Of a stretch of 64,000 bases of DNA, positions 2-41,264 are shown one piece after another. Numbering within the stretch: the stretch's first letter is position 1; each line of letters starts with the position of its first letter. Position numbers and translations under genes: made by a program. Source of the DNA: Turnera subulata (lineage: Eukaryota; Streptophyta; Magnoliopsida; Malpighiales; Passifloraceae); the NCBI GenBank assembly GCA_028386065.3, contig JAKUCV010001073.1:162061-226060 (forward strand). The letters are read 5' to 3'. Under the pieces are notes generated by a model. It worked only from the letters and a program-made list of their open reading frames with translations, made no database searches and had not been told where the DNA came from.

Positions 2-805
2 CCATTGGCAGACTTCAAGGATATATTCTACAACGAGTTCCTTACCGTTGGTTTCTTGGAGGACCAGAAAAAGCAGTTTCTTGAGGTGAAACAGGGGCCC
101 GATGAGTCAGTTTCTGCATTCATGATCCGATTTAGTATTCTTCTCTCCTACGCCAAGGAGTTTGTGCCCGATGAGGTGACACAGTGTAGGCGGTTTGTAG
201 ACGCTCTGCGCCGCGAGTTGGCGATAGTAGTGGCTGGTGGGAGACACCGAACTTGGGAGGCAGTTTGTGAGGCTGCTTTTGATGCTGAGAGGATTCAGTT
301 GATCGGGCAGGAGACCCGGCCAGCCGAGCGAGAGAAACAGTCAACAGTATCTGGACAAAATAGGCAACATTCTAGTTCAGGTGATGCAAGTTACATGAGT
401 CGACAGGGTTCTTCCTACCAAGGTTCGAAGAAGTCCCGAGGACAGAAATATCAGGGTGGACCGGGCAAGTCTTCGGGAGGAAAGCCTTATCAATCTGGAT
501 CTCAGAGGCGGGGCCCTTGGACAAGACCTCCTATTACATGTTGGTATTGCGGGAAGCAGGGACACCACAGGTCAGAGTGTTCCAAGAAGATTCGTGATAA
601 TGGAGGTAGTGGGTCCCAGTATACCGTATAGAACTCCGTGGCTAACGGTACAGTTCCTTCTGGTCCGAACCAGGGTGGTGGACACCAGGGAGGAAGTCGT
701 AGGAGTTCTGGAGCTCCGAGCCACGGAGGTGCTACTCGATCTGCTGCTACTCCTAGGGTGTACTCTATCACTCGGGAGGAAGCTACCGACACCCCAAAAG
801 AATGA
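2..805 (+). pseudogene. Ty3/gypsy gag fragment with zinc knuckle, one in-frame stop
   Basis: The frame is open to the left edge, so the true start is outside the window. Residues 1-100 look like a plant Ty3/gypsy capsid (retrotrans_gag family): the stretch around FLEVKQGPDESVSAFMIRF and RRFVDALRREL matches the usual capsid helices. A basic Ser/Gly/Gln-rich linker follows, then a CX2CX4HX4C zinc knuckle (CWYCGKQGHHRSEC, about 537-580). A TAG at 629-631 interrupts the frame; the same frame then runs on to TGA at 803-805, ending with a VYSITREEA-like segment that normally leads into the protease. Nothing of protease, RT or integrase follows. Gag would package element RNA into cytoplasmic particles; this copy is broken. 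Confidence 0.8.
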
Positions 806-1054
806 GATGTCTCGAGAGGTTCACTTTGCTTTGCTTTGTTTCTTTTCTTTTATTATTATTATTATTATTATGTAAAATTTCGAGGACGAATTACTAATAA
901 GAATGAAAAGTTGTCAACGCTTGTTTAGTGGAACATTAATATAAGTGGAAATTTATGCCATAATTAAGAGGAAACATAAATATTATTATTAATACTAATA
1001 TTATCATTACAAACATAAACATTACATTAATACTTTATAAAAATAAAAATACAT
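806..1054. other. AT-rich spacer with a stray pre-LTR motif
   Basis: A (TTA)n run (about 850-871) is followed by TTTCGAGGACGAATT at 879-893. This is nearly the motif that precedes the polypurine tract of gypsy elements in this window (compare 3109-3125 and 23374-23390). It may mark a deletion joint where the end of pol once lay. The rest is AT-rich and would be the 3' untranslated region of the antisense gene. Confidence 0.4.
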
Positions 1055-1738
1055 TCAACTCCTTGGAACGACGTTGACCCTGAAGCTGTTGGGGTCATTA
1101 TTGACGTTGACCGTGACCCTGTTGCTCCACGAGAACCACATGCCGCCTCTGTCGCTCTGGCCAGGAATCTCGAACCGGTTAGCTTGAGGGAACCGGAGTG
1201 GGATGAGACCGTGATCGTCCCGTGGTTGCCACTGTGTCTCTGTCAGAAGAACCATGTTCGGCTTATATTGGTTCTTCAGGTCCCTCAGAGTACGCGAGAA
1301 CTCCTGGGCACGCCTTGCTACTCCTCTGTAGTTCCACACCAGTAGTCGTGCCTTTGGCCAGGTTGGAGGTAGTCGAGTCATTCTGGGCATGCTCTGAGCC
1401 GTCATCGAGAGCTGGTAGTAGGCACCTTGCTCCACAGTTTGGCAAGTGGACTCCAGGTTGAACTCCTGCAGTCTTTCCGAGATGAAGAACATCACGGAGT
1501 TTGCCGATCCGTAGTAGGAGGTCCTCAGAGTGCCGCGATCCTCCAGGAAGAACACCTCTTCTATTGGAGTGACGAACAACCGCGATGAGTAGAGCTCATC
1601 GACGAAGACCAGTCAGGGCATCCTGCCGAGCTCGTTCGGTAGTTCTTCAGCACGTTCGTTGACCATGCTGTAGGCCAGTCGGTTTCTTCTGCCTAGGTTG
1701 GCACCTTCGACGAAAAAGACAGAGGATGGAGCAGGCAT
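1055..1738 (-). pseudogene. Antisense cargo gene, copy A: unknown domain + truncated LINE-type endonuclease-like domain
   Basis: Minus-strand ORF of 227 codons starting at the ATG at 1736-1738, with one in-frame TGA at 1613-1615 where copy B (38185-37158) has an Arg codon. A CGA-to-TGA change is the simplest cause. Residues 1-120 match no family I recognise; conserved pieces are VFFVEG, GRRNRLAYSMVNE, LVFVDELYSS, FFLED and GSAN. Residues about 130-220 resemble the N-terminal half of the exonuclease-endonuclease-phosphatase fold of LINE ORF2 proteins: LLVWNYRG, then KPNMVLLTET (metal-binding Asn and Glu positions), then GGMWFSW. The second half, with the DxN and His motifs, is absent, so nuclease activity is unlikely. 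The ORF runs opposite to gag and has its own TATA-like box 111 nt upstream. Function unknown. Confidence 0.7.
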
Positions 1739-1848
1739 TGTGTTTTGGACGTATGGGTGTTTTGTTTTTCTTGAGTTTTGAGGTTTCTTTGCCTGGGCGT
1801 GTGATTGCCTTAAAAATGCTTTTGATGACTTACTTCTCACCACACTGT

Positions 1849-1856
1849 CTTTTATA
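1849..1856 (-). promoter_or_regulatory. TATA-like box of antisense gene copy A
   Basis: TATAAAAG reads on the minus strand 111 nt before the ATG at 1738. The leader between them contains CAAAGAAAC and AAAACTCAA blocks that recur in the leader of copy B (minus strand, just upstream of 38185), which also has a TATA-like box at a similar distance. The shared layout favours a real promoter over chance. Confidence 0.5.
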
Positions 1857-1861
1857 ATCTT

Positions 1862-2578
1862 AGGAGGAGCGTGTTATTTGCTTTCGAATTTCAAGTTTTT
1901 GCTTTTTGAAATTTTACCGTTACTCCATTTATTGCTTCGACACTTTATGTGTTGGTTTTCGGGCAACAAATGCCAGAGGTTATCAGTCCTTTTCTATCTT
2001 ACGATTTTCAATTTCCTGGGCTACTTCATTTTGGTCTCCTTAAAACTTGTTCCTACATCTTTTATCACATGCACTCGTGACCGTTGTGGCTATACCGTTG
2101 GGACCACACCTCGAGTAGAGCGCATGTGCGACAAGCTTACAGCAGTTCGGACATCGTGGAGAGATACGGGACTTGTTAGACATTTTTGGCTCATGCGGAC
2201 TTTGTGGACAAGTGGATAACGTTTCTTTCGAGGGAAACAGGACGTTCCCATGATCACCGCCTTGCGAGTTAACGGACGTCTTTTCCAAGAGGGAAACCAA
2301 CGTCACCGTTAGCTGTGTATGTTACGTTTCTCGGGATCGAGGATGTTCACGATCGATGAAGGACGCCGAACATGGAAACATGTTTTGTTTTAACCTCATA
2401 ATGTTTTGACTTTATTAAACGAGTTTTGCTTCATTTATAATTTCTTTATGTTTGATTTTATATCTTTATTGCTGGTTTTAATCGATTTAAAACTAGATTT
2501 CGCAACGTAAGAGTTATGACTTACGAAGAAAGTTTATTTTATTGATTTCATGACGTTATACAACAAAGGAGAAGCACT
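1862..2578. other. Spacer between the two antisense genes
   Basis: About 0.7 kb with no recognisable protein similarity or repeat structure. It would hold the 3' end of the antisense transcript from 2956 and the upstream region of the gene starting at 1738. Short ORFs here look random. Confidence 0.3.
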
Positions 2579-2956
2579 CTACGAAGTTACATGATTCTTC
2601 AGATCTTTTACAAGTTCTTGTATGTTTGCGATCTGAGAAGAGAGTCCCATACAAGCCAGTTCAATCTGCGCCACCGCTGAGCTGACCTTCTTCAGTGAAG
2701 TGTCCAGCTGCTTCATTGTCTGTAGTGGAGTGCTGCTTTCAGCTGTTGCCTTGCCCTTCTTATCCTCAGTTTTCTTGTTGGCACGCTTCTTTCGCCATCT
2801 TGGAGAGACCACCATATGCTCCTTCAGGCCGATGATGTTGGTCTTGAACCGCTTCTTAGGAGGTTCCTCATCGGAGCTTGTCGGGAAAGCAGTACCGCCG
2901 ATGTAACTGTTATCCTCTGAGTCAGAGGTAGTACGGGATCTTAGTGGTGAGTCCAT
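2579..2956 (-). CDS. Antisense ORF: small basic, nuclear-type protein with coiled coil
   Basis: An intact 125-residue minus-strand ORF inside the gypsy element. Residues 1-35 are Ser/Asp/Glu-rich and acidic. Residues about 33-70 hold basic clusters that look like nuclear localisation signals (PPKKRFK, then RWRKKRANKKTEDKKGK). Residues about 80-122 form a heptad-like helix (LDTSLKKVSSAVAQIELA ... IQELVKDLK) likely to make a coiled coil. A TATA-like box lies 34 nt upstream of the ATG. I know no family for it. It could be a cargo regulatory protein or a captured host fragment. It is intact while gag in the same element is broken, but its short length leaves chance possible. Confidence 0.5.
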   Translation of the reverse strand: MDSPLRSRTTSDSEDNSYIGGTAFPTSSDEEPPKKRFKTNIIGLKEHMVVSPRWRKKRANKKTEDKKGKATAESSTPLQTMKQLDTSLKKVSSAVAQIELACMGLSSQIANIQELVKDLKNHVTS

Positions 2957-2989
2957 GATTCAGGATGAGTTATCAGTTATGAGGATTGG

Positions 2990-2997
2990 TTTATATA
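2990..2997 (-). promoter_or_regulatory. TATA-like box of the 2956-2579 antisense ORF
   Basis: TATATAAA on the minus strand within CCTATATAAACC, 34 nt before the ATG at 2956. If it works, the 5' leader would be only a few nucleotides long, which is unusual and lowers confidence. Confidence 0.4.
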
Positions 2998-3106
2998 GGC
3001 GGAGGAAACATCGCTTAAGGGTATAAGCGATATCTCGCGTTGAGTTTGGACACCCGGTGGAGTACACCAGAAGATCATCATGGTAGGACCTACGGATTTG
3101 ATGATT

Positions 3107-3145
3107 GAATTTCGAGGACGAAATTCTTTTTAAGGTGGGTAGAAC
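3107..3145 (+). other. Pre-LTR conserved motif and polypurine tract
   Basis: TTTCGAGGACGAAATTC followed by TTTTTAAGGTGGGTAGAAC ends directly at the LTR start (TG at 3146). The same motif order precedes the LTRs at 23401 and, on the minus strand, at 48739. The purine-rich stretch is the expected primer site for plus-strand DNA synthesis, here weakened by a T. Confidence 0.65.
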
Positions 3146-6100
3146 TGTAACGCCCCGGTTTTCGTTTCAATTTTAAAAAAAAAATTCAGATTTCGGAAAT
3201 GGAAATAAAATTAATTTATTTTCCATTGGACTTATTAATTATAAGTTGGTAATATGTCGTGTTCGAGTTTCGTCGGATATCAAGGGTGTTTCGGGACGAA
3301 ACACAGGGTTTATCGTTGTTGGGATAAAACTACGTCGTTTTGGGTGTGTAAGAAAAAAAAAAAACTCTTGGGAAGGGTCAACCTGGGCGGGTTGACCAAG
3401 CCAAGCCAAACGACATGTCGTTCGGCCGGGCTAGGTCAAGTCCCATGCGCCCTCTCCCTTCTCCTTCTTTTCTTCATTTCTTCTTCTCTATTTTTTTTTC
3501 CCCTTTCCTCCCCACTCAGCCGCCATCCCCAACGGTATTGTCTCCCACACCATCAACGGCCATCAACCCCACAACCTCCTCCTCCTTCTTTTCTTATCTC
3601 TTCCCTTCCTTTTCTTTTCAATCTCACACCCTCCACCATCATCCACACCATCTCGTCCCCTCTCCTTACTCACACAAAGACCGTCGCCGCCACCTCTCCA
3701 TTTCCTCTTTCCTTTGAGCCACCGCCGTCGCAGGTCGAACGGCGAGGATCTGAGGTCGACCTAACCTGTGACCGAACCAAGAGGACCCGGGAGCGAGTTC
3801 GGGTGTACGCCGCCATCGCCGTCCGCGACCGTGACGAGGAGGCCTGTGCGAGGTGTAGCCGTCACCGCGCCGTCGTCGTACTGGTAAGTCCCGCCGCCCA
3901 TCAATTCTTCTTCCTCCACTAGTCTCTTTAAGTTGATAGTGGTCCGTTGATGAGGTTATGTGTGCGTTTGTTTGTGGCCGGTAATTGATGGGGGTGTGTG
4001 TACATCGTGGAATTTTTTCGTGGCGGCGTTGGATTGTGGTGTTCAGGTTCGTGTCGCCGGATTGGGTGCTGCAGGAGCGGGTCGTGCTGGGCTGGGTTGC
4101 GGTTGGCTCGACCGGCTTGAAGGCTGCTGCTGCCGACAGATCGGGCAGTGTGTGTGCGTGTTCGGGTTGCTGCCATTCTCGGGCCTTGAACTCGGCAGTG
4201 GACAGAACCGGCATGAACAGTACCCTCGGGTGAGAATTCTAGCATCAATCCTTCATTTCTTCTATTCGTTTTGAGATTCTATGGTTGTGTAGTTGTTTGA
4301 ATGCGTTCTGTTCGTCTTTGGGTCTCAGTTAGGCTGTTGTGGTTCATTGGTCGGTGGATTCTGTTATTCCGGCGAGGTGACCGGAATCCGGCGAGCACGT
4401 ACTACTCCAGCGAGGCTCGGGAATTTTCCGGCGAAGGCTCGAATTCTGTCCAATGACATATATTTCTTGCTTAGACGGTATTAATCCTCTGTTTTGTCTC
4501 GGTTTTGTCTTGTACATGAATTTTGAATTATTTACCGAAATACACATTTATTTTTATTAAGCGAACTGTGGATTACCGAGAGCGGGAAGTGGAGTGTGTG
4601 GCCGGGAAGAATTACCGACACGGATAGAACCTTAGGCCAATAAACTCTTGGGTTCGGGAACGATCTTAGAATAGTTTTTAGAAAAACCGAGCCCAAGCCC
4701 AATAACCTAATTATAAAGTTAAGAACGTTTCATGGATTTAAGATATGGACTTAAGGCCTAAACGCTGATACTTAATTTACAGACATTAAGAACGGGCTCG
4801 AAGCCCAATTTTCATAATCGGTTAGTATGAACGTAGTGAAGTGGGCCTCGGCCCGAGATTCTTATTTAAGGAGTTAGTGGGCTTTAGGCCCGGGAATCGT
4901 TCATGGATTTGGGTCGCCGATCCTTAGATCCCTAATCGTTGGAGTTATGGATGGAAAAAAATATCCTTTTGGGCTTAGACCCGGAAATCTTATAATCGGT
5001 TAGTTAGGTTCGGGAGTTACTCGATTGGAGCATACCATTAGCTTACGTGCACATTTTTTTTACTTCTAAAATTGGTTTAGTGATTATATTATGTACCGGT
5101 ATTCAGGCACGGGAGATACCTCGGGAGCCGTAGGCTCAGATCGGGGAGAAGTCATAATCTGCATTTTGAGGTGACATTACAAGTCTTTATATATATGTTT
5201 TGTGAATGCATGTTGGTGTGGTTTGTTTGTTTACTTGCCTTGTTTGCTACATGCGGTGATTGGAATTGTATACCTGATTGTTCTCACATGCCTAATTTCT
5301 ATATGAGAAATTGTTATGGAATAAAACATGTATTATGTTTTTGGTGATAGTGTGTGGTTATGGGCCGAAGGCCGGATAAAACAAAAACACATAGAATTCA
5401 CACATCCCTGGAAAACATAATTTATCTCAACAGAAATGTAAAAGTGTAATTATGAATAAAATATTAAATTCTACTGTGGCGTCTGCTGGTAGCCCCGAGG
5501 GAGGGTTGGGTACCCTCGGGTCACTTTATGCTGTTTAGCATGGTATCCCAGGGGATGTAGATGCACCCCTGGAAGACTTGCACCGGTTAGGTGTGTCTGA
5601 GTGCACCCTCAGGTAGCTAGCGGCCACCCGAGATTTATCGATGGTTTTTGACCTCAGAATCTACCCCTTCTGAGGTTCTACACTTGGGTTTCACACCCGG
5701 ATCTGATCAGATGCACTACCGAGACTTGACTCACGGTAGAGGGCCCATAATAATAAAAATTATAACAACGAAATAATGCATTGAATCTAAATAATAAGGA
5801 CAATAATACAATAAGATGTTTATGTGTTGGTGTGTAATTCTGATATTGCTTGTATGCTGTACTTGTGCTCGTGAACTACTCACCCTACGAGCATGACTTC
5901 ACGTTCATGTATACTTAGACTTTTAATGTTCACTGAGTAGGCGACTCACATAATCGCCACCGTTGTTTTTCAGACTTTAGTTAGCGAGCTGTCTCACCTT
6001 TACCTTCGACTCAGAGTCCAGACGCAGATACTTCAGCAGGTAGTTGTGCATCATCTCTCGGTTGGATCCATAGGGCCCATATGCATGCTATTTTCTCTAT

Positions 6101-8140
6101 ATTGTTTTCTTTATATTATTTCATCTTCCACTGCATGAGAATTAATCTGAGATGTCATAAATGTTTTTACTTCTTTATCGGCGTTTTGCCGGAGTTTGAT
6201 TTTGTGATGTTATTTCGGCGTGATGCCGTGGTGGCTTACGAATTGTTAAGCCGGTTTATCTCTTTCATTTTATGACATCTCGGTGTTGATAAATTTCTTT
6301 AGATAATGTTTGTGTGCTGAAGCACCGGTATTTGTATCCCGGGTTTCGAGGGTATTTTGGCAAATCTCTTTCATTTAATTATTTATATTTTATTTTATTG
6401 GGATACGGGCCTCCACAAGATGGATTGGTGAAGGTGCTCTCCTTGAGGGGGATAAAAAGCATCACGTCCCGAGTTCGAATCCCTAGTGCTGCAGCATGGT
6501 AAAGGATTAAACCTTGAAAAGGTGTGAGCTGAGGGATGTGATGTAACAATACCTGAATATGGTGGGTCCCTCGGGGAGAGGGCCTTCACATCGTAAGTAG
6601 TCTATTGTTGTTGGCATCGGTTGCCAGTTGTTCTTTGTTTATTGTCGGTTTCTTTTGATAATTGTCGGATGAGTAGCACTTGTCATTTTTGATAGGAAAA
6701 TGAGACGTGGTCAACAGTTGGGCTATTATCATTTCTAAGGGTATGTCGATACCCAGAGATCGAGATTGGTGAAGATTGTTGTTGTTATGGTTACGAGTTG
6801 CTGTGATGGCCGCTGTTGCTGTTGCTGTGTTGTGATTCTACCCGGGGACCGGTTTGCGATGTTGATTGGGTATGGTCCGTGCAGGTTGCCGGCTACCCGG
6901 TGAGCGAGGCTCACGTGATTTTGAGATTGTTTTGGTACCGGGTTAGATGATCGGCAAGTACGGTATCAGTGTGTTATCATACGATGGGGAACCACTGTTG
7001 AGTATAGATTGTTAGGACTGGTGTGTGTGTTGTATAGTCTGTTGAGACTGGGTCGGTTACCCAACATATGGTTGAGTTGAGGTGTCCTGGTCGGGCACTA
7101 GTGTATGGTACAGTCTGTATTAGGTTGTCAGTGCATTGCATAGTCGATGGGGTGGACATTGGCATAGTCTGCATTGATCTTTGAGAGTGTATTTATCATG
7201 TCTTTCGTACACTACTCGTATGCCGTATTGTTGTGCTCTTGACTGTTAAGTATATGCTATGTTGTTCATCATGGGTTATGTGTCGGTGAGACTATGGAGA
7301 ATATTGTTGTTGTTATGGTTACGAGTTGCTGTGATGGCCGCTGTTGCTGTTGCTGTGTTGTGATTTTACCCAAGGACCGGTTTGTGATGTTGATTGGGTA
7401 TGGTCCGTGCAGGTTTCCGGCTACCCGGTGAGCGAGGCTCACGTGATTTTGAGTTTGTTTTGGTACCGGGTTAGATGATCGGCAAGTACGATATCAGTGT
7501 GTTATCATACGATGGGGAACCACTGTTGAGTATAGATTGTTAGGACTGGTGTGTGTGTGTTGTATAGTCTGTTGAGACTGGGTCGGTTACCCAACATATG
7601 GTTGAGTTGAGGTGTCCTGGTCGGGCACTAGTGTATGGTACAGTCTGTATTAGGTTGTCAGTGCATTGCATAGTCGATGGGGTGGACATTGGCATAGTCC
7701 GCATTGATCTTTGAGAGTGTATTTATCATGTCTTTCGTACACTACTCGTATGTCGTATTGTTGTGCTCTTGACTGTTAAGTATATGCTATGTTGTTCATC
7801 ATGGGTTATGTGTCGGTGAGATTATGGAGAATCTCACCCCTCACCTGCCCCATCGGCAGGCTTCGTTGTTCTTATGCAGGTATGCATCATGGCAGGCTGC
7901 GACATCTCCTCTGACGGATCTAGATCCATAGTTGCATCGAGTCGATTCATGCTGTTGCTGTAATTATTTAAATTGCTTCCGCTATGTTTTTGATACCTTG
8001 CACCCGTGGTCGGGTGACATGATATTTTCTTTGGGCCGTTAGGCCAGATTTTCGTGTTGTATTTCCTGTCTGTGCCACGTGTCGGCACTGTTTGTTCGGT
8101 AAACACTGTGTATGGGGTGAATAGTAGTCGGGGTGTTTCA
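3146..8140 (+). repeat. 3' LTR of the non-autonomous gypsy element (about 5.0 kb)
   Basis: Starts TGTAACGCCCCGG and ends GTCGGGGTGTTTCA; the ends are inverted complements of each other. It includes a pyrimidine-rich then GC-rich block (3440-4240), a cluster of GGGCY/RGCCC hairpins (4790-4990), short hairpins with GAA-containing loops (5363-5373, 6313-6324), a 528-bp tandem duplication (6775-7832), and a CACGTG site near the 3' end (about 8077). ORFs in the GC-rich block have no family similarity and are not called. Such length is at the upper end for plant gypsy LTRs. Confidence 0.8.
6775..7832 (+). repeat. Two-copy 528-530 bp tandem duplication inside the LTR
   Basis: Copy 1 is 6775-7302 and copy 2 is 7303-7832. 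They begin with ATTGTTGTTGTTATGGTTAC and end with GTCGGTGAG..TATGGAGAAT. Only scattered single-base and small indel differences separate them, so the duplication is younger than the LTR family. No coding function is visible. Confidence 0.9.
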
Positions 8141-15289: not shown

Positions 15290-15919
15290 GCCTATTCAAA
15301 CAGGTGTACTTATTAATTCAAATAATTTAGTTATTATGTTTAGAAATTAAAATTAAATTAATTAATATTTTAGTTATTATGTTCAGAAATCAAAATTAAA
15401 TTAATTAATATTTAATTTATTATGTTTAGAAATCAAAATTAAATTTAAAGGTATATACTAAATTTTTAGGTTGTATTTTGACTATTTACGAAACATACTT
15501 ATTAGGTTTGATAACCGAAATCAGTGATAAATATATACAATAAGTTCATAGAATACGATCTTTACATTGTCTTTATACAATTAAATCTCAGATGTACTTA
15601 TTAATTTTGTAAACCTAATTATCAATATGTATATTTTTAAAATTATGTTTAAGAATCGAAATTAACTAAAAATGTATACATTAAATTTTAACCATGTGGT
15701 TGGACTATTTATGAGAGTTACTTATAATGTTTGAAAACATAAATTTATAATAAATATATACAACCCAGTGCATTGTTTACAAATAATTTATTTATTAGGG
15801 TTACCAAACCCATTTAATAGGTTTGAAAATCGGAATGAATAATAAATATATACAACTCAATGTATAGAATTTTATTTATTAGGTAAAAAAATTGAAACTA
15901 ACTGTAAATGTATATATTA
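15290..15919. repeat. AT-rich complex repeat, left part (split by the gypsy insertion)
   Basis: Blocks such as ACTTATTAATTC...AATTATTAGG, ACAACCCAGTGCAT/ACAACTCAATGTAT and the palindrome-like CCCATTTAATAGG(TTTGAAAA) recur here and continue right after the gypsy insertion at 32587-34130. The insertion therefore split one repeat region of over 2 kb. Very low GC, no ORF. Confidence 0.65.
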
Positions 15920-18705: not shown

Positions 18706-18802
18706 GTAGGTCCTTGGTTGTTGTTTGATCGTCTGTGCATATCCTGCTCCACATGTTATAAATATGGTACTCATGCATGCATCTTCATATAGGAAGGACG
18801 AG

Positions 18803-21800
18803 ATGGATCCGGCTGAGGGACACCAGCATGCCGCCCAACAGCACTTGGAAGAGGACCAAGTGTCAATCGGTCAACCGCATGCATACGGAGAAGAACCACA
18901 TGTTTACGATGGGGTATCGGGTATACCATACCAGATGTCCTTGCAGATGATGCACATGATGACCCAGATCCTTCATCCACAGACAGCTGGGGGACCAGTC
19001 GAAGACCCTGTTTTTACCAAGCTATCTAAGCTTGGAGGTGAGCCCTTCTCAGGAGCGACTGACCCTCGTGAGGCGGATGAGTGGTTACGTCAGATCGCCA
19101 GGGTCATGCTTAAGATCAAGTGCACAACTGACCAGTGGGCGAACTATGCCGCTTCTATTTTCCGTGAAGAAGCAGCAACATGGTGGGAATCTACCACAAG
19201 AGACCTGCCAAAACCAGTGGTGATGTCATGGGCTAAGTTCACGGCCATGTTCAAGGACAAGTTCATTACTGAAGAATTTCAGGAATGCATGCAGCGCGAA
19301 TTCCTGGAATTGCGCCAGGATAATATGACCATGACGGAGTATAAGAAGATGTTTGATCATTTGTCCCTGTATGTTGGAGATCTGGTGGCAACAACCAAAG
19401 CCAGAAGCCAACGTTTCTGGAGAGGTCTACATCCTGACATCCAAGCTATCATGGAATGCAAGGATTATGCTAGATATCAGGAAATGGTAAGGGATGCTCA
19501 GAAGGCTGAAGTTACATGGCGTGATCAACAGGAGTATCGCCGGAAGAGAAATGCACCGCAGGTTCCTCCTAGTCAGAACAAGAAGCCATATGCACCTGCC
19601 GCTAGTGCGCCTACAGCTGGACGAGGACAGTATCAGCAGATGACTTATGGACGTGGTTGGGCTAACAACCGCGGAGCTTCAACCGGAGGATGGAGTGGAC
19701 CTGGAGTGACTATTTCTGGAGATAACCGCTTCCGATGCCCCATATCATCGGTCAGATGCTTTGAATGCAATGAGTTGGGACATTATCGTTATGCATGCCC
19801 AAAGCTTGGGAGAGTCAGTAACTCTGCACCGGCACCAACAGTTCAGGCCTCTGTGGCTAGCGTGACAAGTGGATCTAGAGCTCATGGACAAGGTCGTGGT
19901 CGTGGGAATCCTTCCGCAAGGACCCAATCTGGAGCTAACCAAAGCAAAGCAGTTCCTAGAGCTTTCGTCATCACCGCGGAAGAAGACCCTGATGCTGCCC
20001 AAGTTATAGCAGGTTTCTTTACAGTACATGGTAAGTTTGCATTCACATTAATTGATCCTGGAGCTACACATTCCTTTATAGCTCAAACTTATGCTATGCA
20101 ACATAACTGTGAAGAAATATCCCTAGAAAAACCGATGAGGGTTAGATTACCCGCAGGCATCATAGTGAGGTTAGATAGAGTCTGTAAGGATGTACCGTTA
20201 GTACTTAAGAACGAAACCTTTCCTGCTCGACTCATTGTTATGAACATGGGAGGATTTGATATAATCCTAGGCATGGATTGGTTATCAAAGTATCGAGCTT
20301 TGGTAGATTGTCGAGCTAAGCAAGTGAGGTTGACATTTGCCGAAGGTCGGACGATTGTTTTGTTCGGAGTGGGGAGAACTACAACCACATATAGTATCTT
20401 TGCTACCCAGGGCTACCGAATGAAGCAACATGGTCCAGATGCTTTGCTGACCCACATTCCAGAAGAAGAAACACAAGATTCCACGTCGGAAGATGTATCA
20501 GTTGTGAGGGAGTTCGTTGATGTTTTCCCAGATGATCTACCAGGTTTGCCACCTGAGTACACCATAGAGCTTGTACCTGGAATTACACTTATCTCGATGG
20601 CACCAACAGAGCTTCAGGAGCTGAAGAAGCAGCTAGACGAACTACTGGAGAAAGGTTTCATCAGACCTAGCACCTCACCATGGGGTGCACCAGTTTTGTT
20701 TGTGAAGAAGAAGGACGGTAGTCTGCGGATGTGTGTAGACTATCGACAGTTAAACAAGGTGACAGTCAAGAACAAGTACCCCGTTACCGAGGATTGATGA
20801 CCTTTTTTATCAGCTTCAAGGAGCAACGGTGTTTTCAAAGATTGATCTCCGATCGGGCTATCACCAGAACAAGATTTCGGAGAAGGGCATACCGAAGACA
20901 GCCTTTCGCACACGGTATGGCCACTTCGAATTCACTGTGGTGCCTTTCGGTCTGACCAATGCACCAGTAGTATTCATGTGCTTGATGCACTTGGTACTGA
21001 ATGAGTTCTTGATAAGTTCGTTGTGGTCTTCATCGACGATATCCTCATCTACTCCAAGAGCAAGGAAGAGCACGAAGAGCATTTGAGGATAGTGCTTCAA
21101 AGGTTACGGGAGAAGCAGCTGTATGCCAGATTCAGCAAGTGTGAATTTTGCTTGGAGAAGTTTCCTTCCTCAGACATGTAGTAGGCGGGGATGGAATAAA
21201 GGTTGATCCTGCCAAAGTTAAGGCCGTGTTGGAGTGGGAGCCTCCTAAGAATGTGTCCGAAGTCAGGAGTTTTCTTGGCCTTGCAGGATACTATCGGAGG
21301 TTCATAGAAGGTTTTTCCTTAATAGCCAGTCCATGACTAAGCTGTTGAGGAAAAAACAAGCTTTTGTTTAGAGCCCAGAGTGCCAACAGAGTTTTGAGGA
21401 GCTTAAGAAGAAGCTGACAGCGGCACCAGTGCTAACAGTACCGAAGCCAGGAGTTGAGTACGCGTTGTTTTGTGATGCATCAGGTCTTGGTTTAGGAGCC
21501 GTGCTGATGCAAGAAGGACGAGTGATTGCCTATACCTCTAAACAGCTAAGGACTCATGAGAAGAACTACCCGACGTATGATCTTGAGATGGCAGCTGTGA
21601 TTTTGGCTCTGAAGATTTGGAGACACTACTTGTTTGGAGAGAAGTGTCTAATCTTCACTAACCACAAAAGCCTTAAGTACATCATGACTCAGAAGGAGCT
21701 TAACCTGCGACAAAGATGCTGGGTTGAATTGCTTAATGATTATGATTGTACTATCTAGTATCACCCAAGAAAGGCTAATGTGGTAGCTGATGCTTTGAGC

Positions 21801-23366
21801 CAGAGACAATCGGATGATGCCTCGACTAGTTACTCGATGTTTTCACTTTTCGAGTTAAGGAAGTTGGGAGTTGACTTGGCAGTAGATGATACAGGAGCTT
21901 TGCTGGCACACATGAGTGTCAAGTCTAACCTAAGAGGATGGATAGTGGAGTTACAAGATGGAGATCCCGACCTGGTCAAGCTAAAGGAAGGAGTAAGGAG
22001 CGGAAGGGAAGATAAGTTTCGTATAGCTGATGATGGAGCACTGATGATTAGGAAACGGGTATGTGTACCCAGTGTCAGTAATCTGCGTAGTCAGATCCTG
22101 GATGAAGGTCATATGACGCCATATGCGTTGTATCCTGGAAGCACCAATATGTATTAGAACCTGAAGAGCCATTTTTTGTAGCCTCGTATGAAGAAGGACG
22201 TAGCAGAGTATGTCGTAAGATGCATTACTTGCCAGCAGGTGAAAGCCGAACATCAGGCTCCAGCAGGCAAGATGAGATCATTGACAATACCGGAGTGGAA
22301 GTAGGAGATGATCACTATGGATTTTGTGATTGGTTTACCGATGACTCGGAGGCAGCATGATGCTATTTGGGTCATCGTTGACCGATTAACAAAATCGGCT
22401 CATTTTCTCCCTATCCGCCAAACTGATACCATGGACACATTGGCGGGTAAGTATGTTGCTGAGATTGTGAGACTACACGGGATTCCAAAGACCATAGTCT
22501 CAGACAGAGATCCCAGATTCACATCACGATTCTGGAAGAGTTTATAAGCAGCGCTGGGAACCAAGTTGAGCTTCAGTACCGCTTTTCATCCTCAGACAGA
22601 AGGACAGTCTGAGAGGACTATACAGACACTGAAGGATATGCTTAGAGCTTGTGCACTTAACTTCAGTGGGAGTTGGGAAAAGTAACTACCCTTGGCAGAG
22701 TTTGCATATAACAATGGTTATCATTCCAGTATCAGTATGCCATCTTTTGAAGCCCTATATGGAAGAAAATATAGAAGTCCAGTTTGTTGGGATGAAGAAG
22801 GCTCAAGGCTGATCATTGGACCGGATTTAGTCAAACAAACAGTTGACAAGATCCAGACTGTGAGACAGTGTATGAGAGCTGCTCAGGATCGGCAGAAGAG
22901 CTACGCCGACAAACACCGACGTGAGATGGAGTATAACGTTGGTGAGAAGGTTTTTTTCAGAGTTGCACCCTGGAAAGGAGTGATCAGGTTCGGCAAAAGA
23001 GGAAAGCTGAGTCCAAGGTATATCGGGCCATATGAGATCGTTGAGAGGATTGGACCACTAGCTTACAGGTTGTCATTACCTGAAGAGCTTTCACGTATTC
23101 AAGACATGTTCCACGTCTCTATGCTGAGGAGATATCGAACGGACCCTAGTCATGTTGTGGCCCCAGTGGATGTGGAGGTAGCAGAGGACCTTACCTACAT
23201 AGAAGTGTCGGAACAGATTCTTGCTCGGGAAGTACGACAGATACGAAACCGCACCATTCCCATGGTAAAAGTCAAGTGGAGTAAGCATTCCGCTAATAAA
23301 TCAACATGGGAAGTCGAAGAGCATATGCAGTCCCAGCATCCGCATCTCTTCACCGGTTCAGAGTGA
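18803..23366 (+). pseudogene. Gypsy gag-pol, internal region 1 (gag-PR-RT-RH-INT-chromodomain), many lesions
   Basis: Start chosen at the ATG at 18803 (MDPAEGHQH), the same start as in the 53407 element. Order: capsid; CX2CX4HX4C knuckle ([14 protein letters not shown]); protease with [10 protein letters not shown] with [16 protein letters not shown]; RNase H with [14 protein letters not shown]; integrase with an HHCC-like finger and D-D-E core; a GPY/F-like module (RYIGPYEIV); and a C-terminal chromodomain-like end (VKVKWSKHS..STWEVEEHM). Lesions: frameshifts near 20780, 21013, 21150 and 21333, and stops near 21370, 21756, 22155, 22183, 22302, 22545 and 22683. Two small in-frame deletions lie near 20555 and 20600. 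The last 224 codons (22692-23366) are open. Cannot make active enzymes. Confidence 0.9.
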
Positions 23367-26408: not shown

Positions 26409-26522
26409 TTTTGGTAGCGGAGCGGGCTGTAGGTCCTTGGTTGTTGTTCGATCGTCTGTGCATTTCCTGCACCACATGTTATAAATATGGTACTCATGCA
26501 TACATCTTCATATAGGAAGGAC

Positions 26523-29500
26523 GAGATGGATCCGACTGAGGGACACCAGCATGCCGCCCAACAGCACCTGGAAGAGGACCAAGTGTCAATCGGTCAACCG
26601 CATGCGTACGGAGAAGAACCACATGTTTACGATGGGGTACCAGGTATACCATACCAGATGTCCTTGCAGATGAGGCACATGATAACCCAGATCCTTCATC
26701 GACTGACAGCTGGGGGACCAGTCGAAGACCCTGTTTTTACCAAGCTATCTGAGCTTGGAGGTGAGCTCTTCTCAGGAGCGACTGACCCTCGTGAGGCGGA
26801 CGAGTGGTTACGTCAGATCGCCAAGGTCATGCTTAAGATCAAGTGCACAACTGACCAGTGGGCGAACAATGCCGCTTCTCTTTTCTGTGAAGAAGCAGCA
26901 ACATGGTGGGAATCTACCACAAGAGACCTGCCGAAACTAGTGGTGATGCCATGGGCTGAGTTCACGGCCATGTTCAAGGACAAGTTCATTACTGAAGAAT
27001 TTCAGGAACGCATGCAGCGCGAATTCCTAGAATTGCGCTAGGATAATATGACCGTGACGGAGTATGAGATGAAGTTTGATCATTTGTCCCTGTATGTTGG
27101 AGATCTGGTGGCAACAACCAAAGCCAGATGCCAACGTTTCTGGAGAGGTCTACATCCTGACATCCAAGCTATCATGGGATGCAAGGATTGTGCTGGATAT
27201 CAAGACAAGGTAAGGGATGCTTAGAAGACTGAAGTTACATGGCGTAATCAACAGGAGTATCGCCGGAAGAGAAATGCACCGCAGGTTCCTCCTAGTCAGA
27301 ACAAGAAGCCATATGCACCTATCGCTAGTGCGCCTACAGCTGGACGAGGACAGTATCAGCAGATGACTTATGGACGTGGTTGGGCTAAAAACTGCGGAGC
27401 TTCAACCGGAGGATGGAGTGGACCTGGAGTGACTAATTCTAAAGATAACCGCTTCCGACGCCCCATATCATCAGTCAGATGCTTTGGATGCATTGAGTTG
27501 GGACATTATCGTTATGCATGGCCAAAGCTTGGGAGAGTCAGTAACTCTGCACCGGCACCAACAGTTCAGGCCTCTGTGGCTAGCGTGCCAAGTGGATCTA
27601 GAGCTCATGGACAAGGTCGTGGCCGTGGAAATCCTTCCGCAAGGACCCAATCTGGAGCTAACCAAAGCACAGCAGTTCCTAGAGCTTTCGTCATCACCGC
27701 AGAAGAAGACCCTGATGCTGCCCAAGTTATAGCAAGTATCTTTACAGTACATGGTAGTGTTGCATTCACAGTATTTTATCCTTGAGCTACACATTCCTTT
27801 ATTGCTCAAACCTATGCTATGCAACATAACTGTGAAGAAATATCCCTAGAAAAGCCGATGAGGGTTAGATTACCCGCATGCATCATAGTGAGGTTAGATA
27901 GAGTTTGTAAGGATGTACCGTTAGTACTTGAGAACGTAACCTTTCCTGCTCGACTCATTGTCATGAACATGGGAGGATTTGATATAATCCTAGGCATGGT
28001 TTGGTTATCGAAGTATCGAGCTTTGGTAGATTGTCGAGCTAAGCAAGTGAGGTTGACATTCGCCGAAGGTCGGACGATTGTTCTGTTCGGAGTGGGGAGA
28101 ACTACAACCACATGTAGTATCTCTGCTACCCAGGGCTACCGAATAAAGCAACATGGTCCAGATGCTTTGCTGACCCACATTCCAGATGAAGAAACACAAG
28201 ATTCTACCCCGGAAGATGTAGTAGTTGTGAGGGAGTTCGTTAATGTTTTCCCAGATGATCTACCAGGTTTGCCACCCGACAGAGAGGTTGAGTACACCAT
28301 CGAGCTTGTACCTGGAATTACACCTATCTTGATGGCACCATACAGGATGGCACCAACAGAGCTTCAGGAGCTGAAGAAGCAACTAGACGAACTATTGGAG
28401 AAAGGTTTCATCAGACCTAGCACCTCACCATGGGGTGCACCAGTTTTGTTTGTGAAGAAGAAGGACGGTAGTCTTAGGATGTGTGTAGACTATCGACAGT
28501 TAAATAAGGTGACAGTCAAGAACAAGTACCCGTTACCGAGGATTGATGACCATTTTGATCAGCTTCAAGGAGCAACGGTGTTTTCAAAGATTAATCTCCG
28601 ATCGGGCTATCACCAGATCAAGATTTCGGAGAAGGACATACCGAAGACAGCCTTTCGCACACGGTATGGCCACTTCGAATTCACTGTGGTACCTTTCGGT
28701 CTGACCAATGCACCAGCAGTATTCATGTGCTTGATGCACTTGGTACTGAATGAGTTCTTGGATAAGTTCGTTGTGGTCTTCATCGACGATATCCTCATCT
28801 ACTCCAAGAGCAAGGAAGAGCACGAAGAGCATTTGAGGATAGTGCTTCAAAGGTTACGGGAGAAGCAGTTGTATGTCAGATTCAGCAAGTGTGAATTTTA
28901 GCTTGGAGAAGTTTCCTTCCTCAGACATGTAGTAGGCGGGGATGGAATAAAGGTTGATCCTGCCAAAGTTAAGGCTGTGTTGGAGTGGGAGCCTCCTAAG
29001 AATGTGTCCGAAGTCAGGAGTTTTCTTGGCCTTGCAGGATACTATCGGAGGTTCATAGAAGGTTTTTCCTTCCCATGACTAAGCTGTTGAGGAAAGAACA
29101 AGCTTTTGTTTGGAGCCCGGAGTGCCAACAGAGTTTTGAGGAGCTTAAGAAGAAGCTGACAACGGCACCAGTGCTAACAGTACCGAAGCCAGGAGTTGAG
29201 TACGTGTTGTTTTGTGATGCATCAGGTCTTGGTTTAGGAGCCGTGCTGATGCAAGAAGGACGAGTGATTGCCTATGCCTCTAGACAACTAAGGACTCATG
29301 AGAAGAACTACCCGACGTGTGATCTTGAGATGGCAGCTGTGATTTTGGCTCTGAAGATTTGGAGACACTACTTGTTTGGAGAGAAGTGTCGAATCTTCAC
29401 CGACCACAAAAGCCTTAAGTACATCATGACTCAGAAGGAGCTTAACCTGCGACAAAGACGCTGGGTTGAATTGCTTAATGATTATGATTGTACTCTCGAG

Positions 29501-30602
29501 TATCACCCAGGAAAGGCTAATGTGGTAGCTGATGCTTTGAGCCAGAGACAATCGGATGATGCCTCCACTAGTTACTCGATGTTTTCACTTATCGAGTTAA
29601 TGAAGTTGGGAGTTGACTTGGCAGTGGATGATACAGGAGCTTTGTTGGCACACATGAGTGTCAAGTCTAACCTAAGAGGATGGATAGTGGAGTTACAAGA
29701 TGGAGATCCCGACCTGGGCAAGCTAAAGGAAGGAGTAAGGAGCGGAAGGGAAGATAAGTTTTGTATAGCTGATGATGGAGCAATGATGATTGATGTCAGT
29801 AATCTGCATAGTCAGATCCTGGATGAAGGTCATATGACGCCATATGCGATGCATCCTAGAAACATCAAGAAGTATCAGAACCTGAAGAGCCATTTTTTGT
29901 GGCCTCGTATGAAGAAAGACGTAGCAGAGTATGTCGCAACATGCATTACTTGCCAGCAGGTGAAAGCCACACATCAGGCTCCAGCAGGCAAGATGAGATC
30001 ATTGACAGTACCGAAGTGGAAGTGGGAGATGATCACTATGGATTTTGTGATTGGTTTACCGATGACTCGGAGGCAGCATGATGCTATTTGGGTCATCGTT
30101 GACCGGTTAACAAAATCGGCTCATTTTCTCCCTATCCGCCAAACTGATACCATGGACACATTGGCGGATAAGTATGTTGCTGAGATTGAGAGACTACACG
30201 GGATTCCAAAGACCATAGTCTCAGACAGAGATCCCAGATTCACATCACGATTCTGGAAGAGTTTACAAGTAGCGCTGGGAACCAAGTTGAGCTTCAGTAC
30301 CGCTTTTCATCCTCAGACAGATGGACAGTCTAAGAGGACTATACAGACACTGGAGGATATGCTTAGAGCTTGTGCACTCAACTTCAGTGGGAGTTGGGAT
30401 AAGTACCTACCCTTGGGAGAGTTTGCATATAACAATGGCTATCATTCCAGTATCGGTATGCCACTTTTTGAAGCCCTCTATGGAAGAAAGTGTAAAAGTC
30501 CAGTTTGTTGGGATGAAGAAGGCTCAAGGCTGATCATTGGACCGGATTTAGTCAAATAGACAGTTGACAAGATCCGACGGTGAGACAGTGTATGAGAGCT
30601 AC
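26523..30602 (+). pseudogene. Gypsy gag-pol, internal region 2, stops plus 3' truncation
   Basis: Same domain order as internal region 1 up to integrase. Stops: TAG about 27039 in capsid, TAG about 27232, TGA about 27783 where the protease Gly of DPGA should be, TAG about 28899 in RT, and TAG 30557-30559. A ~10-bp deletion near 29072 shifts frame between RT and RNase H, and a small deletion removes residues near 29790. The longest open parts are RT (27819-28901, with [10 protein letters not shown]) and RNase H-integrase (29075-30559, with the DRDPRF and HPQTDGQ motifs of the D-D-E core). In the zinc knuckle region the last Cys is Trp (about 27519). After about 30602 the sequence jumps into LTR sequence, so the integrase end, chromodomain and polypurine tract are lost. 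Confidence 0.9.
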
Positions 30603-34532: not shown

Positions 34533-34744
34533 TGTTATAAAACGTGTGATTAATGGATGTCATTATCATCCACCTAACACTATATTGTTGTATATTTAAA
34601 CAATGAATGAAAAATATTGAGTAGTAGAACGAGCTCAGCCTTCCCCTCCTTCAACGTTTCTTTTTTCCTCTGCTGCCTCCTCCTACATCATTTTCTTCTC
34701 TATTAAACAACTTCTCCATTAAACAACACATATTATTTACAACA
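34533..34744 (+). repeat. 5' LTR of the copia element
   Basis: 212 bp, TG...CA ends, about 98.6% identical to the 3' LTR by hand count. Followed directly by CGTTATCAGCACGATT (34745-34760), a sequence typical of the primer-site position in plant copia elements; I have not matched it to a specific tRNA. Confidence 0.93.
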
Positions 34745-37010: not shown

Positions 37011-37157
37011 GTATAATTATTTGTGTCTGTGGGCGTAAATGAGATAATAAATAAAAAGGCTCAAAGTAAACATGCATATTATTATTGCAAAAACAGATCC
37101 ATAACTGGAGAACATTCAAAGAAGAATGGTTCTCATACATATGTTTGAACAAGTAAT

Positions 37158-38185
37158 CTATCGGTTGGGTTCAACATTAACCCTGAAACTCTGAGCCTCA
37201 CCATTAATGTTGACTCTAACACTGTCGTTCCAGGAGAACCACATACCACCCCTGTTGTTTTCTCCAGGTATCTCAAACCGATTCGTTGGAGGAAAACGAA
37301 GTGGAATCACACCATGATTCTCCCCTGCTTGCCACAAAGTCTCTGTAATCAGTACCATGTTAGGCTTGTACTGATTCTTCAGATCCCTTAAGGTACGCAC
37401 AAAGACTTGAGACCTTCTTGCTATACCCCTGCAATTCCACAATAAAAGTCGTACCTTAGGCCATGTAGGTGGTAACCCAGTCACACTTGGGACGCTCCGA
37501 GCCATCATAGAAACCTGATAATAACTACTTTGATTTAAAATTTGACATGAAGGCTCTAGCTGAAATTCCTGCATCCTAGCAGATATGAAAAACATTATAG
37601 AGTTAGCTGAGCCATAAAAATTTGTCCTAAGATTACCTTGGTCCTCCAGGAAGAAAGTTTCTTCCATTGGAGTCACAAAGAACCTAGACGAGTATAGCTC
37701 ATCTACAAAAACCAAACGTGGGATTCTTGCTAGCTCATTAGGCAGTTCCTCTTGTTGTTCATTTACCATGCTATAGGCCAATCTATTTCTTCTGCCTAGT
37801 GAGGCACCCTCAACAAAGAAAACAGTAGCTGGGGANNNNNNNNNNNNNNNNNNNNNNNNNNNNNNNNNNNNNNNNNNNNNNNNNNNNNNNNNNNNNNNNN
37901 NNNNNNNNNNNNNNNNNNNNNNNNNNNNNNNNNNNNNNNNNNNNNNNNNNNNNNNNNNNNNNNNNNNNNNNNNNNNNNNNNNNNNNNNNNNAGGAAGAAA
38001 GTTTCTTCCATTGGAGTCACAAAGAACCTAGACGAGTATAGCTCATCTACAAAAACCAAACGTGGGATTCTTGCTAGCTCATTAGGCAGTTCCTCTTGTT
38101 GTTCATTTACCATGCTATAGGCCAATCTATTTCTTCTGCCTAGTGAGGCACCCTCAACAAAGAAAACAGTAGCTGGGGAAGGCAT
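37158..38185 (-). CDS. Antisense cargo gene, copy B (intact apart from an assembly gap)
   Basis: ATG at 38183-38185, stop at 37158-37160. The run of Ns at 37836-37991 is flanked by an exact 188-bp duplicate (37648-37835 and 37992-38179). If one duplicate is an assembly artefact, the ORF is 227 codons with no stop, the same length as copy A (1055-1738). I count about 71% identical residues, while many codons differ synonymously. The N-terminal 120 residues are of unknown family. Residues about 130-220 resemble the first half of a LINE-type endonuclease (LLLWNCRG, KPNMVLITET, GGMWFSW). The catalytic second half is missing. It lies opposite to the copia genes, has a TATA-like box 98 nt upstream, and its block lacks the element's hairpin motifs, as expected of inserted cargo. 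Confidence 0.7.
37648..38179. other. Assembly gap of 156 Ns flanked by an exact 188-bp duplicate
   Basis: Ns occupy 37836-37991. The 188 bases before the gap (37648-37835) are repeated without a difference after it (37992-38179). Identical ends at a gap usually mean two overlapping contigs were scaffolded rather than merged. The alternative, a real recent tandem duplication, would break the gene. Confidence 0.9.
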
Positions 38186-38278
38186 TTTTGCTTGGTTGAG
38201 TTTTCTGTTTCTTTGCTTTGATGAATTTTTCTATATCTATGAGTTTTCCTGTATCTCCCCATGTAATCCTTCCCCCTT

Positions 38279-38439: not shown

Positions 38440-40925
38440 CTTTTCCGACATGAATGGCAGGAATAAGCCTAATATTGACACATGTATTGCAGCCTGAAGC
38501 TTGCAGTTGAGTAATTGAAACTTAACATATCTAGCCAGAAGCTGGAATGCACTAGCCTGGAGCTAGCAATTTTAAGTGTTTAGATACACAGCTTGCGCAG
38601 CCTGAAGCGGGCACCAACTTGAAGTTGGTTCATGGATTTATTATTTGGCATGACCGGATGGGCCATCCCGGGTTAATAATGATGCACGAAATTTATTGGA
38701 ACATTCATTGAAAAACCAGAAGTTTTACAATTAATGAATTTCTATGAGTTTGTTTGCTGCGAAAGTTATTATACGGTCTTCCTAAGATGAGAATGGCCTA
38801 GTATCACCAGCAAAGTTTGAGAATAGTTCAGGGAGATAAACGCGGACTGATAAATCCGCGGTGTTAACCATCTAGGTAATTTTTACGATGCATCGACTAG
38901 ATGGTCTATTATGTGACGCAAGTTGGCATTGTGCGCACTGATTTAATAATTAAGCCACTTGCGGTATATGTCCCTACTTATGTTATTAGACTATATGTCT
39001 AGATAATGTTGGTATGTTTCTTCAATGGAGAATGTATATCATTGGAAATAAACCCAAAGAGATCTGGGCCATATTGACAATTGATTGCAGGACCATTGAT
39101 GAAATATGACTATGATATTTTATACGCAGTAAATGTGCATCAAGCCAATAAGATATTATAAGATCATAAGATCTCCCCATTGGTTCTTGGTCACAAAATA
39201 TCTCCCATCTTCGGACCGTTGGTTGTACAGTATATTATGCTTCACCACAGCATAGTTAATCTGGTCCTTAAAGAAGTTTGGGAATAGATGTTGGGTAATC
39301 TCCATCAAAACACAACATTATTAAGACTATTGACTAAAAGATTGGAGATTCATTTATAGCGAAATTTGCTTATTGATAAATTTGATATGTGTGTATACCC
39401 AACATCAGGGGGAGAAAGAAGCAGCTGGATCAAGTTTGTTGAAATGCATAATATATATGAATGTTGATCCTCATATAAATTAGTATGAACCTGAAGTTCA
39501 AAAGAAGATTCATTTGTAGAAAAGTTGATATGCAATTGCCAGACACATTTAAATTAAGTGTGACCATATACCAGCTGCAGATGCTCCTGTTTAAATTGAT
39601 GTTCCTGAAGAACAATATAAGTATGCAAATGAATCCATAGTTTATACTCGGTTCCAAAAAGAAAAGAAATTCTCAATAGAGAAAAAGGAGCAAATGTGAT
39701 AAGATGGCCCCAGTTAAAAAAAAAATATATATGCCTTCAGTAGAGGTTTGAATTAAAAGTCCTCCAGAAGAGGTTGATTCTCTGACACAATTGATAAATT
39801 TTCAGAAGTAACTCAGGTACCTGAAATAAATGAGCATGATAAGATCTCAATTACAGTGTCAGGAATAAGATGGAACCGACGAGAAATAACCGTCGACGGA
39901 ATACAATTTTAATTAATAGCGCTAAATATTAAAAATGAGGATCATGAACCTACTAATGAAAGTAGGCGTTGTATGATTGGCCAAAATAAAGAGATATAAT
40001 TAAAGGCTGTGTTTGACTCGCTTATGAAGCGAGATATTTTTCGGACCTGTAGTCCGTACACCAGAGTGTGTAAAATTGATTAGTCGTAGAAACGGGTATT
40101 TGTGCGGAAAATATAAATAAGATATAAAGCACGGTTGCACAAGGTTTTACCCAAACGACCTGATTTTAATTATGAGGAGATTTACTCCCCTGTGGTGGAT
40201 GCAATTATGTTAATAAGTCTGGCATTATATGAAAAGAATTTGAAATGCATCTAGTGAATACTATTACAGCCTATTTATTAATATGGATCCATAAGTCATG
40301 ATATATACATGAAGATCCCTGAAGGATCCAAGTTGCCTGAAGCAACTAATTCCCGGGAAATTACAAAATAGCGTTGAACTGATCTTTACATAATTTAAAT
40401 CATTTTGAGTATGGATAAACTTATTTATGATTGGAACTCCCGAAGAAGCTTCCAGATACCGTGCTATTAGATTGGTCCTGGAGTACCCTGTTGAAGTGCA
40501 ATATGTATTACTAAGAAAATAAAGCCTGAAGCTTTTGACTTAAGCGTATTGGCAAGATAAGAATTTGCTCTTATCTTCGGGGTATAAAAGATGAGGTATC
40601 ATGTTAATCCTGTAAGCCCGAAGAAAGAAGAGTTGGTTCTAGCAGATGCCGATCCCCCACTTGATCCACAAAAGGCACAGCCGGACATCTGCCACAACTT
40701 TACACATGAAATTGTTGCATCATTGGGACTACAAAAGGAGAGAGGGCAAGACAGATGCTCCGACAACAAAAATTATGAAGATAAAGCTACCTACATTGTC
40801 CAGTTGGAATAATAATGTATCAAAGGTAATCAGACAAGGCCTACATCACCAGAAGTTGACAAGAGGATTATTGACGTTCAACGACAACAAGAAATCAAGA
40901 GAGGCCAAAATGAGGGGGAGTAAAA
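38440..40925 (+). pseudogene. Copia pol remnant: integrase end, reverse transcriptase, RNase H
   Basis: Broken into short frames, but collinear with plant copia Pol. About 39355-39415 is the integrase C-terminal FTARFADC..FPTLGG-type segment. About 39480-39660 resembles the following linker (IPAADAPV.IDVPEEQ). About 39845-40010 is the SGIRWNRR..LNI segment. About 40130-40260 is RT (PDFNYEEIYSPVVDAIMLISLALYE can be followed in two pieces). About 40300-40350 reads IPEGSKLPEA. About 40620-40920 is an RNase H remnant (NYEDKATYIVQL, DVQ). Many stops and frameshifts remove activity. At least nine perfect short hairpins with GAA loops lie within it. Confidence 0.75.
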
Positions 40926-41052: not shown

Positions 41053-41264
41053 TGTTATAAAACGTGTGATTAGTGGATGTCATTATCATCCACCTAACAC
41101 TATATTGTTGTATATTTAAACAATGAATGAAAAATACTGAGTAGTAGAACGAGCTCAGCCTTCCCCTCCTTCAACGTTTCTTTTCTCCTCTGCTGCCTCC
41201 TCCTACATCATTTTCTTCTCTATTAAACAACTTCTCCATTAAACAACACATATTATTTACAACA
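41053..41264 (+). repeat. 3' LTR of the copia element
   Basis: 212 bp, differing from the 5' LTR by three transitions (TAGTGG for TAATGG, AATACTGAG for AATATTGAG, TTTTCTCC for TTTTTTCC). The target duplication GTTAC follows at 41265-41269. Confidence 0.93.

Follow-up and report, generated by a model that had tools for sequence, protein, structure and literature searches.

An antisense protein-coding gene in gypsy and copia-like LTR retrotransposons of Turnera subulata

The analysed window is a stretch of 64,000 nucleotides from Turnera subulata (contig JAKUCV010001073.1, positions 162,061 to 226,060 of the forward strand). It contains two copies of one gene, copy A in a gypsy element (element A) and copy B in a second LTR element with copia-like features (element B; Table 1). 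The sequence-only reading, made before this analysis, had proposed that each copy runs opposite to its host element, and this was borne out by the orientation of the elements. The frames of copies A and B (1055-1738 and 37158-37835, both on the minus strand) are collinear, with 161 of 226 residues identical (71%) and zero indels, in agreement with the earlier hand count. A 15-residue run, TLRDLKNQYKPNMVL, is indeed identical in both proteins; the number of codons that differ within it is 9 of 15 (counted by eye), not 8 as stated earlier.

Table 1. Coordinates of the antisense genes and of their host elements in the window.
Feature	Position	Strand	Remark
Gag of gypsy host element A, zinc knuckle	5..631	+	cut by window start; Retrotrans_gag E 3.7e-5
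Copy A, antisense gene, 227 codons plus stop	1055..1738	-	in-frame TGA, codon 42, 1613-1615
Copy A TATA-like box, 118 nt 5' of ATG	1850..1856	-	putative promoter element; chance possible
Second antisense ORF of gypsy element A, 125 aa	2579..2956	-	basic PKKRFK stretch
Element A 3' LTR, TGTAACGCCCCGG...CCACA	3146..6417	+	end inferred from L070 alignment
Element B target duplication GTTAC	34528-34532 and 41265-41269
Element B 5' LTR, copia host, 212 bp	34533..34744	+	then CGTTATCAGCACGA, primer-site-like (putative role)
Copy B, uninterrupted open stretch (residues 3-227, stop)	37158..37835	-
Assembly gap, 156 N, within copy B	37836..37991
Copy B start, Met1 onward, beyond gap	37992..38185	-	repeats 37648-37835 exactly, with six further bases
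Decayed Ty1/copia reverse transcriptase remnant (RVT_2), stops and frameshifts	40090..40338	+	E 9.8e-4, below Pfam cut-off
Element B 3' LTR	41053..41264	+	preceded by purine tract AAAGGGGAG

Neither copy in the window is an uninterrupted frame as it stands in the assembly. Copy A had been described as an ORF of 227 residues; it has the 227 codons and the stop, but the frame is interrupted by the TGA. Four other A copies (L002, L004, L007 and L070, with L002 and L070 representing a single copy) have an open frame of 227 codons. Copy B had been given as a single ORF at 38185-37158. The gene is real, but this frame is broken by the gap of 156 N, which is flanked by an exact 188-bp duplicate (37992-38179 repeats 37648-37835), so that the start codon is visible only beyond the gap. 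The earlier range thus reflects an artefact of the assembly at the site of a real gene, and the duplicate is probably an unmerged contig overlap.

Element A was characterized with the help of L070, in which it is nearly whole, with LTRs that are 98% alike over the 959 bp in hand. L070 contains a gag frame (Retrotrans_gag, 4.2e-6) with two antisense ORFs alongside, and no pol-like frame of at least 100 aa was seen when its ORF list was inspected by eye; the Pfam scan covered its two gag frames. The second antisense ORF was matched in L001-L008 and L070; the copy in L070 gave no Pfam family above cut-off and no TRP28 or SMC match. A tblastx comparison of 800-3200 with 36500-40500 yielded no match outside the first antisense gene. 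A further A subfamily, A3 (L075), retains the primer site and leader of a gypsy element together with the opening codons of a gag-like frame (ATGGATCCAGTC..., read by eye), and the antisense gene follows directly after the start of that frame. Two A3 copies (G000 C2848:3999-4679 and C978:136661-137341) are part of open frames 1,559 and 1,307 codons long, possibly due to adjoining N runs, while the other listed A3 matches lie in open frames of 236-310 codons.

The window contains element B in full, and its LTR pair shows three differences in 212 bp. Another B element (C374) is flanked by a different target duplication, TCATA, and a third (C4643) probably has CTATG, with only 115 bp of LTR and a 15-bp start aligning. 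Assignment to copia is suggested by RVT_2 remnants under the Pfam cut-off in the window and in L069 (E 3.8e-4) and by a weak gag_pre-integrs match; L071 gave no RVT_2 and no Pfam hit. Copy B is situated 5' of the reverse transcriptase remnant (37158-38185 against 40090-40338). Some lesions of this remnant, as compared by eye, are common to several copies in which the antisense gene is open, and the copies therefore seem to derive from an already broken ancestor. The host elements seen look non-autonomous.

Elsewhere in the window, gypsy elements with gag-pol frames were found at 48776-53407 (-), 18725-23366 (+) and 26487-30559 (+), one frame comprising 1,351 aa. Their leader resembles the A3 leader, and tblastn of the antisense gene against these three elements found no copy. 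A group of ORFs at about 44750-47090 (-) looks, on inspection by eye, like the exons of an ordinary host gene whose product may begin with a plastid-targeting signal. Short arrays of diverged repeats occupy 15445-15892, 32757-33842 and 58435-63504, the last being AT-rich.

Abundance was estimated by exact matches to short protein motifs in the 519-Mb genome. The seven-residue motif QYKPNMV gave 4,744 matches, compared with 9 for a reversed-pattern control, and RGGMWFSW gave 1,392, compared with 2. Since these counts lie far over the controls, the gene family exceeds chance. By their codons, the first 100 RGGMWFSW places listed comprised 34 of B type and 66 of A type (hand count). The sequence was read at 9 of the 100 listed QYKPNMV places; four of the nine showed one variant with no RGGMWFSW listed nearby, and one of these (C24:58780) lies inside a stop-free match 89% identical to B3. 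Conceivably, a large third family also stands behind the 4,744 matches. Stop-free matches numbered 129 (B), 122 (B3) and 145 (A3) among the 150 best each (hand counts), in lists that were selected for similarity and are thus biased to good copies, those of B and B3 overlapping.

The claim that one gene is common to gypsy and copia elements and antisense in both was supported by the sequences around the gene, which at each of 38 loci (8 of A type and 30 of B type) match element A or element B with the gene in antisense orientation. These loci were located by way of the gene itself and are best hits, from which a rare host copy could escape, and they include the reference copies L002 and L014 as well as the window copies L001 and L009. 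L029 additionally contains 188 nt that run the other way, and only 157 of the 1,500 bases in the left flank of L024 match. A third element with ends of its own, which had been named as the finding that would speak against a gene tied to its LTR hosts, was not supported: similarity between A and B stops at the ORF, and decayed ends are possible.

Upstream of the genes, a TATA-like box had been described at about 100 nt from the start codon, and it is present at 99 nt (B) and 118 nt (A) from the ATG. Of 10 aligned copies, eight have it between -99 and -117, and two copia copies have it at -59 or -68; it could be a chance occurrence in AT-rich DNA. The proposed similarity of the A and B leaders was not detected, blastn similarity being confined to the ORF apart from matches of at most 22 nt. 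In L019, the coding part is of B type, and the leader resembles, by eye, that of the minus copy of L073.

Selection was assessed from the ratio of nonsynonymous to synonymous differences (pN/pS). Forty-four loci were examined; a start-motif search found 38, of which 34 were kept, 31 of them unique. The four that were dropped had fewer than 227 codons (three broken and one window copy with the gap), so the table leans to intact copies; L073 has two gene copies, and only its minus copy was included. Between subfamilies, pN/pS was 0.103 (A1-A3) and 0.104 (B-B3). Within subfamilies it was 0.066 (A3-A3), 0.243 (A1-A1) and 0.083 (B-B), the last being biased low because B loci were picked by protein score. 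Between A and B it was 0.185-0.195, with synonymous differences of 0.80 or more, i.e., saturated. A dN/dS near 1, set beforehand as the result that would contradict protein-level selection, was not found, pN/pS being well below 1. Thus, the antisense gene is under strong purifying selection, with a pN/pS of about 0.10 between subfamilies. The second antisense ORF of element A is constrained as well: pN/pS was mostly 0.16-0.30, with 0.51 and 0.60 in the two closest pairs (six loci; L004 and L008 were left out because their frames are broken or missing). For the element A gag it was 0.34, with few changes.

These values bear on the idea that the antisense transcript itself is the product, i.e., that it forms dsRNA regulating or silencing the sense element RNA while the protein is irrelevant. 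Such a role has been proposed for antisense transcripts of other LTR elements (PMC7264820), but it predicts neither the low pN/pS between subfamilies nor the distribution of the nucleotide differences between A and B, which number 48, 27 and 131 at the three codon positions, the third position thus holding 131 of 206. We regard it as highly improbable.

The protein falls into two parts. Residues 131-218 match the start of a LINE ORF2 endonuclease, over its first ~90 residues. A profile of this endonuclease start, built from nine unique segments of 30 loci found with PF14529 in this genome, scored 44 bits against the gene product, compared with at most 5.5 in 2,000 shuffles, and 30.4 to 45.0 bits over 21 distinct gene copies; hhalign gave a probability of 96.8. 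In blastp, the gene product and the LINE-type locus L055 shared 29 of 86 residues (E 3e-9; 4e-9 in a second one-to-one comparison), and tblastn over the collected loci returned further LINE-type loci with E down to 7.5e-7. The frame of L055 contains Exo_endo_phos (2e-12), Exo_endo_phos_2 and RVT_1 (1e-33), which identifies the relative as a LINE-type ORF2.

The N-terminal WNCxG...E...GGxW block of the LINE endonuclease is present in the gene product. The motifs GDFN and SDH, which are catalytic motifs of LINE endonucleases, occur in L055 past the end of the common stretch and are absent from the gene product. The frame ends at residue 227 with no reverse transcriptase after it, whereas RVT_1 follows in L055. 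Since the protein ends before GDFN and SDH, it is probably without nuclease activity, a reading taken from motif content. General databases returned less. Copies A and B gave no Pfam match at E up to 10, and hence no endonuclease family, TRP28 (PF04195) or SMC domain. In L075, PF03372 matched over positions 2-83 of 225 with E 0.019, under the cut-off, and an NCBIfam endonuclease family matched with E 0.017, far below its cut-off; L069 gave no such NCBIfam match. With a profile of the gene and the LINE segments, exodeoxyribonuclease III (E 0.072) and an AP endonuclease (0.23) were the sole matches, the right kind of protein though not significant. The protein search suggested with the original claim, run with copy B and alignment A1 against 5.8 billion proteins among which plants may be sparse, found no match at E up to 1, and neither did a search of PDB sequences with copy B. 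The N-terminal 130 residues had no match in the protein, Pfam and further searches. An AlphaFold model of A2 was poor (pLDDT 51) and a PDB fold search with it gave no match at E 0.001, so structure was left out of the argument.

The homology to a LINE endonuclease could be taken to mean that the gene is a functionless LINE fragment inserted by chance in both elements. Yet the fused N-terminal part is as well conserved between A3 and B (98 of 130 residues identical) as the LINE-like part (71 of 97), and purifying selection and thousands of motif copies are further evidence against a chance fragment, which we therefore consider scarcely credible.

The main functional rival to an accessory role in retrotransposition is that the protein serves as an anti-silencing or host-interaction factor and does not act on the retrotransposition complex. 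It would then resemble the VANC proteins of VANDAL transposons, described in the accessible portions of two reports as element-encoded anti-silencing proteins (PMC10398659, PMC5735166). The likeness to VANCs is a functional analogy, to which the basic PKKRFK stretch in the second antisense ORF of element A may be added; no VANC link in sequence or structure came up in the general searches. We consider this role unlikely.

Evidence for exchange of the gene came from comparisons among copies. When L071 is compared with the minus copy of L073, the proportion of differences is 0.376 in the 200-bp leader bin, and pS is 0.42-0.72 over codons 1-190 but 0.09 over codons 191-228; the downstream flank differs at 0.07 and the pol-side flank at 0.09-0.21. 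The drop near codon 190 is supported by a Fisher p of 1.5e-5, a rough value since the breakpoint was picked after looking at the data. The simplest reading of these aligned copies is that a diverged block of promoter plus 190 codons was swapped into a similar copia backbone; the block looks exchanged. A similar synonymous drop at the gene end was seen in an A3-A3 pair (L075 and L076; p 0.005). The low synonymous divergence of the last 38 codons in the two pairs could stem either from a breakpoint of recombination or from constraint on a nucleotide signal. In element A, the window and L070 differ with a pS of 0.19 in the second antisense ORF, 0.064 in the first and 0.078 in gag; the higher divergence of the second ORF suggests mosaics in element A as well.

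Since the gene is present in both gypsy and copia-like elements, an old passage between the superfamilies is suggested. Pairwise divergences, taken without a tree, group by host superfamily, which implies only one old event of this kind. Two separate captures would look similar. On this alternative, a gypsy and a copia element would each have taken up one of two related host genes that were LINE-derived beforehand, with no gene moving between the families. The synonymous saturation between A and B fits two old captures, codon usage differs (GC3 of 0.63-0.70 for A and 0.41-0.44 for B), and the flanks are unalike beyond short matches. Against this, no copy was found outside the two element types at the 38 flanked loci, within the reach of best hits noted above, and the gene is antisense, full-length and intronless in both, all of which two captures must repeat. 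Host homologues may nevertheless exist, given that the protein database possibly holds few plants. Separate capture is a serious contender, albeit one we think improbable.

We lean towards the reading that an antisense protein-coding gene resides in a gypsy element with no pol seen and in a copia-like element with a decayed reverse transcriptase, and that its likely product is a small accessory protein that aids spread by binding rather than cutting nucleic acid. The gene would have arisen when the N-terminal part of 130 residues was fused to a broken LINE endonuclease, and it would have passed once, long ago, between gypsy and copia. Within families, blocks of promoter plus gene may later have been swapped, the simplest route being template switching between two co-packaged element RNAs. 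The gene would be transcribed from its own promoter, and the protein may act in trans on RNA, DNA or particles. Lacking the later motifs, its endonuclease part would bind rather than cut, with nuclease activity lost. A bolder and rather doubtful extension is a mobile antisense cassette common to both LTR superfamilies, in which a broken LINE endonuclease became a helper traded among pol-less elements by recombination, perhaps tethering particles to DNA or poisoning rival LINEs. If true, the cassette would be an accessory gene of a community of genomic parasites rather than of one element.

The closest known systems are other accessory ORFs of retroelements. TR-GAGs are non-autonomous LTR elements with LTRs and gag and no pol. 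Element A, as seen in the single element L070, likewise has LTRs and gag with no pol frame seen and fits this description; it differs by its two conserved antisense ORFs. Compared with a plant LINE ORF2, whose matched endonuclease we take to be of the L1 type, the gene has neither the remainder of the endonuclease nor a reverse transcriptase, and it has a new N-terminal part of 130 residues.

The antisense additional ORFs of plant elements (maize Grande gene23, rice RIRE2, Silene Retand and bean pvRetro13) are likewise conserved, antisense and present in many LTR element copies. As far as the accessible text of the sources goes, their hosts are Ty3/gypsy elements and they lie mostly between pol and the 3' LTR (PMC7264820, PMC11963269, PMC4093653), gene23 is reportedly transcribed from its own promoter (PMC7264820, PMC11963269), and the Retand ORFs mostly carry TRP28 and some bean ORFs an SMC domain (PMC11963269, PMC4093653). 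The origin of most such ORFs has been called unknown, and a nested-TE origin is, according to a review, unsupported because they show no similarity to other TEs (PMC7264820). The present gene shares the conserved ORF antisense to gag-pol inside LTRs. It differs in position, since the B gene lies 5' of the reverse transcriptase remnant and A shows no pol, and in domain content, the TRP28 or SMC domain being absent and a LINE endonuclease start present instead. A Ty3/gypsy host was found for A (Retrotrans_gag) but not for B (copia RVT_2, below cut-off). For plant copia elements, an angiosperm survey, in its available part, records no domain gain (PMC9289625).

In bdelloid rotifers, the same types of accessory ORF3 occur in LTR retrotransposons and Penelope-like elements, which the accessible part of the report reads as gene sharing (PMC5408684). 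There, as here, an accessory ORF spans very different retroelement classes. The animal elements have enzymatic ORFs that, in that part of the report, mostly keep catalytic residues (PMC5408684), whereas here the endonuclease is truncated and encoded on the antisense strand of elements in which no working pol was seen. Among the matches listed in the literature searched (titles and openings of abstracts, mostly outside subscription journals), no antisense LINE-endonuclease-derived gene common to copia and gypsy elements was described. The gene is real, abundant, constrained and present in two superfamilies, and it extends the known antisense additional ORFs by one with a traceable part, a LINE endonuclease, in both superfamilies of one genome. 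It is a good test case for exchange between element families and, since it is open while the copia reverse transcriptase decays in the copies examined, also for selection on trans-acting accessory proteins of non-autonomous retroelements.
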